NCBI RefSeq assembly: GCF_020382885.2
Contig: NC_058501.1
Location: forward strand, 15,700,501 to 15,764,500
Source of the DNA: Scatophagus argus
Taxonomy: Eukaryota; Chordata; Actinopteri; Scatophagidae
DNA: 64,000 nt
Direction of reading: 5' to 3'
Made by a program: the position numbers and the translations under genes. The stretch's first letter is position 1. Each line of letters starts with the position of its first letter. The notes under the pieces are model-generated. The model ran no database searches, was not told the DNA's origin, and saw only the letters and a list, made by a program, of their open reading frames with translations. This document shows positions 20,510-23,082 of the stretch, one piece after another.

Positions 20510-23082
20510 CTAGTGCTGTTTCCTCCTGAAGGAGCATCCTACAGGAAGACGGAGAAAAAAAAAATATGGATGTTTCATTTAGTTTGTGTTGTGTTGATTC
20601 GTGGTGCTGCTGACTGTATTATAACTAATACTTTTATCCTGTTCACATCCATGGGGACAGACTAAATATTAGAAATGCCTCTCAATATAACATGATGCAG
20701 CTGGGCTGCAATAAAGCTGACAGTGACAGCTGCACCCATAGTAGTTCAAAGATGAGTGCACTGAGAAGCCTTTGGTTACCACAGCAGCAAAACCCAGGAT
20801 GGAGTGGGTGGGATGGTGAGAACATAAGAAAAAAAACAAACCTTGACTTAATCCAGCGAGTTCAATAACACGCTGTATAAAGTGTGCCATCATTTCTTCA
20901 ATGCGCTCTGAATACTGGCAAATTTTGATCAGTCTTTCATCCAAAATAACACATAAAAAAAACTGAGAAATTTCCTGCCGTACTTGCTCAAAAGAAATCG
21001 GAACGAAGGTCAGAACAAAAAAACATTTGTGCTTGCAGTTGACTGTGTAGAAATGGATCAATGATGATCCATTGATGATCACAGCCACAAGAGTCACTGT
21101 ATGCCTCAGTTGACACCCTGTTCATGAAGAGTCCATTGACAGGGCAACACAAAGGCAGATATCTAGCTAACAGTTATGGGTGCATTTTCCAGAAAGTTCT
21201 GCTAACTGAACCAGCAGAATGTAAGATTTGTTAACATATACTGTTAAATTGAAATATTTTCTATTTTCTCATACTGTTGCAACCCTACAACAGTGAACCA
21301 GGGGTTTTTGGTGCCATGTGGCAGTTGCTCAAGAATCCAGTCTTGTTGCTCCTACATGTGATGTGCTGCGAATATATGATAATGCCTTCACCTGGCAAAT
21401 TAACTGCTGGTGCAAATAAAGCAAATGTATAGTTTGGGGTTTCAAATGTGGCAGACCCCGTCTGAATGAGCCTGGTTGGGTTTTAAAAGACGTGGGTACA
21501 AGCTCAGTTTCAGGCCCGTGCAGAGGTCTGTTGCACAGGAAGTGTAGGCTCAGCGTTTTAAAGAAACTTAGAATTATTAAATGATCCCGTATTATATCAA
21601 GTACAACACATACACACAAACTATAGTGGCACATTTATGGTATGCATTATATATTTTTAAAGGTTTTTAAATGTGTGAGGCTGTATCTATAGTTAAGAAC
21701 AGACAGTTTTTTCCCCACTGTGCACACACTGGTTTTCCTGTACCTTCTGTAAGGCGAGCTTTCCCTCCTGTGGGCTGGCAGAGGACTGTGGAGCAGCCGA
21801 CACACAGCACTACAGTCTGAGCATGACTGAACACTGTGGTGATCTTGTAGCAACCTGCCATGAAAACAGCCATAAAACTGTTATACCGACAACAACACAG
21901 TAAATATTGCATAATCACACGTACTTGAGATTACAGGTGTGTCCTTGCAGCTGTTTGTTTAAAGGAGTCACATGATACTCATTCAACAGACAGTCACAAG
22001 TGTCACTGTATGCCTTATTTGACACCCCAATCATTACAATGAAACAATGAAAGGGCAACACATAAAGGCAAATATTTGCATACAAGTCTAATGTAGGTGT
22101 ACTTCATTTACAAGCACTTAAAATATTAATTATCAAAATTACAACTGAGCAATTATGCTGCAAGTCCTGCATTTAGGCTTTAAACTCCAATTCAAATGTC
22201 ATTAAAGATTGTTAACATAAAATACATTTAAACAGTGCTGATTATAGAAGTTTTTATTATCAGTTCCAAACTTTCTCCCTTATTCAGCTCAAATGTAATG
22301 GCAATAAAGCAAATTTCCTCCAAATAAGTCTAAATTCTCTGTAGTGTTTCTCAACCTTAATTATGAATATCTTATTAGGCACAGTACTTACGTTTATTTT
22401 GTCGCCTATTTTTTCTCTCTGTCATCTAAAACTTAAGCTTTGGTCAGGCTGTTATGTACACAAACTTACCAGGACATTTGACATCCATAAAATAGGAATT
22501 AGGACTCTGTACAAGTCGTTTTTTCTTGTGTCTCCTCTTCTCCTCCTCGGGGCTCGGGTGCGACAGATCTTTTGCGAGCTGGAAGGAAATCACAATATAG
22601 CTGATTTCCAAACTATATTCGATCAAAATCTCCTACAGTCTGATAACTGTTGTAACAAGGTGTAATAGGATAAGTTTTAGTTCTGCATACATTAACCAAT
22701 TACCACAACATGACTACGGGAAGCAAAACACGATATACCTTTCTTTCAAGATCACAAGGAAATCACACATTAATAAAAGGCAACGTGAGACAGCTCAATA
22801 TTTTTAAAGCAATCAAAACCAAAGATATCTTAGAAAGTTGCGTTTTTACCCTCCAAAAAAAATCAACATGTGAAAGAGAGCAGCGTGGGCTGCTTTTGTG
22901 AGCACGTGTTTCGCCATATTGTGTCCGTTTTTACATCTTTGCAGTTAAACTACAACAACACAAAAAAGTCGATTCCAACAGACACAAACATTATTTTACA
23001 TCGTGTTAAATTACTCCAACTCCAAATACTTTTGTGACGATTGAGGGCGAATACAGAAATCCGTACTGCTACTTACTGGCAT
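20510..23082 (-). CDS. rps27: rps27, small ribosomal subunit protein eS27
   Basis: Complete in four minus-strand exons: 23077-23082 (ATG CCA only), 22470-22578, 21744-21854 and 20510-20538. They join in frame to 84 residues, the normal eS27 length. All introns are GT-AG. The protein starts [16 protein letters not shown] and ends GCSFRRKQH, nearly identical to remembered vertebrate RPS27. Four cysteines (C37, C40, C56, C59) form the C4 zinc finger that holds the protein in the 40S subunit. A polyadenylation signal (AATAAA, minus strand) is at 20287-20292. A two-codon first exon is typical of this gene. It is divergent from rab13, as I remember for the human pair. Introns 2 and 3 each contain an H/ACA snoRNA-like structure. 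Confidence 0.97.
21095..21235 (-). ncRNA. H/ACA snoRNA-like structure A, rps27 intron 3
   Basis: On the minus strand, the 3' hairpin has an outer stem TGCCT/AGGCA (21153-21157 with 21102-21106) and a perfect inner stem CCCTGT/ACAGGG. The unpaired sides between them form a pseudouridylation-pocket-like bulge. TACAGTG follows immediately, so an ACA lies three bases before the predicted 3' end at 21095. Upstream is a second hairpin with seven perfect pairs (TTCTGCT/AGCAGAA, 21197-21219). No strict H box (AnAnnA) was found between the hairpins. The target uridine was not worked out. The sense-strand intronic position is usual for vertebrate H/ACA RNAs. Confidence 0.65.
22004..22140 (-). ncRNA. 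H/ACA snoRNA-like structure B, rps27 intron 2
   Basis: A paralogue of structure A in the neighbouring intron. The outer stem is TGCCTT/AAGGCA (22065-22070 with 22011-22016), one pair longer than in A. It is followed by the same TACAGTG tail, so ACA ends three bases before 22004. The pocket strands GTGTTG and GGGTGTCAA are also shared with A, while the apical loop has diverged but still pairs. A strict H box ACATTA (plus-strand TAATGT, 22089-22094) separates this hairpin from a 5' hairpin (GTGCTT/AAGTAC with one GU pair, 22099-22117). Confidence 0.65.

Follow-up and report, generated by a model that had tools for sequence, protein, structure and literature searches.

SNORA13 (RF00396) matches in introns 2 and 3 of rps27 in Scatophagus argus

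SNORA13 in other organisms and at the rps27 locus

The homolog of snR35 of yeast, human SNORA13 (ACA13, RF00396), directs pseudouridylation at position 1248 of 18S rRNA, the first step to m1acp3-pseudouridine (PMC12975130, in the text available). The same text places human SNORA13 in the first intron of the lncRNA EPB41L4A-AS1. In chicken, the counterpart of ACA13/snR35 is GGgACA25, whose 5' hairpin guides 18S-1206 with 5+6 nt of pairing (PMC2653536, in its accessible sections). Because GGgACA25 is named as ACA13, chicken 18S-1206 is considered to be the human 1248 site. The likeness to yeast snR35 drawn here is also by naming, as the homolog of SNORA13 in PMC12975130 and the counterpart of GGgACA25 in PMC2653536, both as far as their available text goes. 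For GGgACA25, the accessible tables list one isoform, whose host is defined by an EST and carries it in intron 2 (PMC2653536).

SnoRNAs have been described to duplicate in cis and in trans, and the vertebrate paralogs, which occupy introns of a single host as well as those of different hosts, resemble the arrangement reported here (PMC2653536, accessible sections). The snoRNA hosts in the chicken tables seen of that paper include RPL30, RPL39, RPL23A, and RPS12. Ribosomal-protein genes are usual snoRNA hosts, a point in favour of SNORA13 copies in rps27. Apart from rRNA modification, SNORA13 is reported to act through RPL23 in senescence, in mice as well as in human cells (review PMC12205218, in part). 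In the available portion of PMC11291168, it appears as a control only.

In S. argus, an element that matches RF00396 is present in both intron 2 and intron 3 of rps27. Both share with human SNORA13 the match to the whole model and the two hairpins with hinge and ACA, and their 5' pocket GUGUU/GUCAA is predicted to serve the 18S U1248 site, on an assumed 18S sequence. The host differs, as there are two copies in rps27 here and a lncRNA intron in human (PMC12975130, available text). Unlike SNORA13 of Rfam, the rps27 copies have diverged 3' hairpins and ACAGTG at the H-box position. The best explanation, to which we give a probability of about 93%, is that both introns encode a SNORA13 that would guide modification of a U in 18S rRNA, and that the copies are cis- and trans-duplicated. 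The family and its target are already known; what is new is rps27 as a host and the copy number. No report of SNORA13 in rps27 was met in the literature searched, where a host table naming rps27 could exist unseen. The set of rps27 (twice), ddx18, and a C2H2 zinc-finger gene was likewise not met in the searched portions of that literature.

The host gene and family assignment

The window is a stretch of 64,000 nucleotides and part of contig C9, in a genome of 570.7 Mb and 48 contigs. Its minus-strand gene is rps27, whose coding exons, with GT/AG splice sites, were read from the sequence. Among chains of solved structure, exon 2 matches eS27/RPS27 (E 6.2e-18) somewhat better than eS27-like (E 1.4e-15).

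23077..23082, minus strand: rps27 exon 1, coding part (ATGCCA), by sequence reading
22470..22578, minus strand: rps27 exon 2, by the eS27 match (E 6.2e-18)
22469-21855, minus strand: rps27 intron 2, with one sense-strand H/ACA-like element inside
21744..21854, minus strand: rps27 exon 3, with similar exons on contigs C17 and C6
21743-20539, minus strand: rps27 intron 3, with one sense-strand H/ACA-like element inside
20510..20538, minus strand: rps27 exon 4, coding part to the stop, by sequence reading

Exons of a Rab gene (window ~24700-28220, plus strand) adjoin rps27; the one exon searched has Rab-8A as its best solved match (E 4.9e-8). We take this gene to be rab13 and assume that human RPS27 adjoins RAB13. 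Such a shared neighbourhood would fit orthology of rps27.

The segment 21742-21857, which matches C17 and C6, was first taken for a further element. It is exon 3 of rps27, matching paralogous genes. The second rps27-like gene, on C17 (C17:7360500-7370400), contains SNORA35 at 5621-5750 (+), with 79.2 bits against a cut-off of 39, between its exon 3 (~4862) and exon 4 (~6088). The human SNORA35 gene is presumably located in HTR2C. A third, more diverged rps27-like gene is seen on C6 (C6:14345500-14355400), with exon motifs at ~4713 and ~4841; no Rfam match was found in this region at E up to 1.

The two intronic elements of rps27 are as follows.

21937..22070, minus strand: SNORA13 copy 1, in rps27 intron 2, 134 nt, RF00396 at 74.1 bits
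21025..21157, minus strand: SNORA13 copy 2, in rps27 intron 3, 133 nt, more diverged, RF00396 at 44.3 bits

Across 4227 Rfam families, copy 1 (22070-21937, 74.1 bits) is the only match at the curated threshold in the whole window. It passes the RF00396 gathering score of 53 bits, with an E of 5e-11 for the window and 1.1e-10 for the whole genome. Copy 2 falls under this score at 44.3 bits, with an E of 1e-5 for the interval 20400-23200 and 5.0e-4 for the whole genome. The fit spans the full 134-position model in both copies. The first-pass annotation had described a two-hairpin H/ACA-like element on the sense strand of each of these introns, and the RF00396 matches bear this out. It had left the family unnamed; the Rfam search supplies the name SNORA13, and the literature supplies the target, 18S U1248. 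A permissive Rfam scan of 20400-23200 (E up to 10) gave eight matches, and SNORA13 accounts for the best two. TtnuHACA21, snoR134, mir-329, SNORD112, DLEU2_4, and SNORA16 at this locus were rejected, each being at least 18 bits under its gathering score.

With E up to 10, RF00396 has at least four matches in the whole 570.7 Mb genome, a lower bound since 45 of the 99,628 first-look candidates were scored. The rps27 copies rank second and third: C17 with 78.1 bits, intron 2 on C9 with 74.1, intron 3 on C9 with 44.3, and C11 with 40.8 (E 0.003). The same search of control genomes gave matches in 7 of 14, all seven of them prokaryotes and all under the cut-off. These matches could speak for chance hairpins, or for a repeat without snoRNA function. 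They also imply that a weak RF00396 match alone means little, so the assignment of copy 2 and of the C11 copy rests also on pocket, boxes, and position. Either origin is nevertheless very improbable for the rps27 elements, given their whole-genome E values of 1.1e-10 and 5.0e-4 and the small number of matches in 570.7 Mb, four as a lower bound. All four are apparently located in introns on the sense strand of the host, as judged by open frames for C17 and C11.

On their sequences, both rps27 elements are assigned to SNORA13, a known family of guide snoRNAs, with copy 2 as a diverged paralog that falls short of curated membership. SNORA13 is only 56% identical between human and chicken, which indicates fast divergence (PMC3349704, in part). 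A weak score of a true copy is thus unsurprising.

Borders, boxes and guide pocket

The first-pass annotation had noticed an identical TACAGTG in both introns, at 22010-22004 and 21101-21095, the stems TGCCTT/AAGGCA and TGCCT/AGGCA, and pocket strands common to both copies. All of these are present. It had also read TACAGTG as the 3' tail with the ACA box, so that the RNAs would end at 22004 and 21095, and the adjacent hairpin as the 3' one. This part has to be revised. In the SNORA13 alignment, TACAGTG corresponds to the hinge that follows the first hairpin and contains the H box, and the second hairpin and the ACA box are further downstream. By the Rfam borders, the hairpin next to it is the 5' guide hairpin, and the 3' ends are at 21937 for copy 1 and 21025 for copy 2, reaching 67 nt and 70 nt past the ends proposed before.

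Folding was compared with 200 shuffled sequences. At the Rfam bounds, copy 1 has z -3.05 and copy 2 has z -4.68, with 0/200 shuffles as good for each. The earlier bounds, taken as 22140-22004 and 21232-21095, gave weaker folds of z -1.54 (14/200 as good) and z -2.22 (5/200), so the expectation that the fold would beat shuffles holds clearly at the Rfam bounds and less well at the earlier ones. The idea of two-hairpin RNAs that end at 22004 and 21095, with the extra hairpin upstream, draws on an ACA in TACAGTG three bases before these ends, and the hairpin beside TACAGTG is real (z -3.74 and -4.05). The upstream halves, however, fold no better than shuffles when taken alone (z -0.23 with 78/200 as good, and z -0.73 with 47/200), and the RF00396 model is matched over its full length at the Rfam borders. 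We regard this version as having a negligible chance of being correct.

Comparison of intron 2 with intron 3 by blastn agrees with the SNORA13 borders. There is one strong match, 22075-21940 with 21162-21028 (E 3.7e-17), whose ends are within ~5 nt of those borders. The next match has an E of 0.006, covers 31 nt, and is on the opposite strand. The stretch upstream of SNORA13 in the earlier elements gave no blastn alignment between the two introns. Folding, homology, and boxes, all taken from sequence, agree on borders that are shifted by one hairpin from the earlier proposal. The proposal that these are duplicated intronic H/ACA snoRNAs is retained, as one family is found at both places and the homology between the introns is confined to the RNA.

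Both rps27 copies consist of two hairpins, a hinge, and an ACA located 3 nt from the 3' end. The positions of their boxes and pocket strands, the latter defined with an assumed 18S piece, are as follows.

22057..22061, minus strand: copy 1 left guide-pocket strand GUGUU, pairing with AACAC of 18S (18S piece assumed)
22018..22023, minus strand: copy 1 right guide-pocket strand GUCAAA, pairing with UUUGAC of 18S (18S piece assumed)
22004..22009, minus strand: copy 1 H-box position in the hinge, ACAGTG, by the SNORA13 alignment
21940..21942, minus strand: copy 1 ACA box, 3 nt from the 3' end, by the SNORA13 alignment
21146..21150, minus strand: copy 2 left guide-pocket strand GUGUU (18S piece assumed)
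21110..21114, minus strand: copy 2 right guide-pocket strand GUCAA (18S piece assumed)
21095..21100, minus strand: copy 2 H-box position, ACAGTG, by the SNORA13 alignment
21028..21030, minus strand: copy 2 ACA box, 3 nt from the 3' end, by the SNORA13 alignment

The H box has the consensus ANANNA, from which functional boxes may depart at one position. The last base departs from this consensus in both rps27 copies (ACAGTG) and in the C11 copy (ACAGAG), and the C17 copy (ATAGCA) fits it. In H/ACA RNAs, the distance from pocket to box is about 14-16 nt. The upper stem of each rps27 copy ends 14 nt before the H-box position, within this range. The pocket strands GUGUU and GUCA are identical in all four SNORA13 copies of the genome, and UGUGUUGCCC and GGUGUCA are also invariant among them. 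The assignment to the SNORA13 family, the two-hairpin anatomy, and the pocket of the rps27 copies are demonstrated at the level of sequence.

The 5' hairpins of the four copies fold consistently well (z -3.74, -4.05, -3.90, and -3.76; 0/200 shuffles as good for each). The 3' hairpin alone has z -1.72 in copy 1 (10/200 as good) and z -4.44 in copy 2 (0/200), where it differs widely from the other three copies. At 21045-21080 of the window, within the 3' hairpin of copy 2, there is a near-perfect palindrome, AATGGATCA/TGATCCATT, which is absent from the other three copies.

The low score of copy 2 (44.3 bits, under the cut-off) and its unusual 3' hairpin would suit a decaying duplicate in intron 3, with the copy in intron 2, or that on C17, as the only working SNORA13. 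In copy 2, on the other hand, the guide pocket is intact, the ACA box is present, and the 5' stem is kept. Its fold is the strongest of the four copies against shuffles (z -4.68, against -2.12 for C11), which is unexpected under decay. Decay of copy 2 is thus considered unlikely, though it deserves more weight than the other alternatives to a SNORA13 in each intron.

Other copies and probable duplication

The two further matches are in other genes.

5131-4996 of the C17 segment examined, minus strand: SNORA13, 78.1 bits, the best-scoring copy of the genome
4778-4644 of the C11 segment examined, minus strand: SNORA13, diverged, 40.8 bits, under the cut-off

The C17 copy is flanked by exon-like open frames of a C2H2 zinc-finger gene in the same orientation, which we take to be a ZNF687/592-like gene. 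The frames flanking the C11 copy, again in the same orientation, belong to a DEAD-box gene, and DDX18 is its best relative among solved structures (E 6.1e-37). As a whole, the C17 copy folds with z -2.38 (3/200 shuffles as good), and its 3' hairpin alone with z -1.31 (22/200); the C11 copy folds with z -2.12 (8/200). Rfam ends the C11 copy ~6-7 nt early. When it is read on, AAGGACAC is the same as in copy 1.

With the C11 copy taken at its short Rfam end, identities are 89/130 between intron 2 and intron 3, 89/126 between intron 2 and C11, and 84/126 between intron 3 and C11. Those with C17 are 78/133 for intron 2, 78/132 for intron 3, and 72/128 for C11, again at the short end. By these figures, the ddx18-intron copy and the intron 3 copy are about equally similar to the intron 2 copy (89/126 and 89/130). 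The ddx18 copy and both rps27 copies thus form a looser group, and the two in rps27 probably, though not certainly, stem from a simple duplication within that gene.

When the copies were compared in all six pairs by blastn (plus strand, E up to 0.01), every pair gave a single alignment, at the RNA. The input was the whole rps27 introns, with flanks of 34 nt upstream and 92 nt downstream for C17, and 167 nt upstream and 35 nt downstream for C11. Alignments go past the 5' border of the RNA by ~12 nt between intron 3 and C11 and by ~24 nt between C17 and C11. This picture fits old duplications, as far as the alignments can indicate.

Predicted target and meaning

Target pairing was examined with a 35-nt piece of 18S rRNA of assumed sequence, and the scan took in the copies of intron 2, intron 3, and C17. 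The best pairing site in this piece is GAC[UC]AAC, with 6+7 pairs for intron 2, 8+5 for intron 3, and 6+5 for C17, wobbles included. The next best site in the piece has 6 pairs in all. On this assumed sequence, the pocket GUGUU/GUCAA, kept in both rps27 copies, fits the 18S m1acp3-pseudouridine site (human U1248).

Under the SNORA13 reading of both introns, each RNA would be released by trimming of the spliced and debranched rps27 intron and then bound by H/ACA proteins. The pocket of the 5' hairpin would pair with the nucleotides flanking the U of GAC[UC]AAC in 18S rRNA, with the U of GACUCAAC in 18S as the expected best site. This pairing would direct pseudouridylation at that U, the first step towards m1acp3-pseudouridine (human 1248). 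The copies themselves would have arisen by cis- and trans-duplication. Expression, processing, and guide activity of the rps27 copies are all predicted from what the family does. In the part available of the survey PMC10234308, 211 non-expressed snoRNAs have a canonical rRNA target, and over 87% of them have another copy. A SNORA13 copy with an intact pocket can thus still be unexpressed.

A broader proposal is that this guide of an 18S hyper-modification has spread in this lineage to no fewer than four loci (two in rps27, one in ddx18), with its supply tied to ribosome production, and that the 3' hairpins, which diverge freely and in intron 3 include a near-perfect palindromic stem, may have gained a second role or target. 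It is tentative, and we consider it rather improbable. Beyond the two points below, the finding is an ordinary snoRNA annotation. The occurrence at several loci, three of them in ribosome-related hosts, illustrates how the SNORA13 guide can change hosts and still retain its pocket. It also warns that removal of a single SNORA13 locus in a fish could be without effect.
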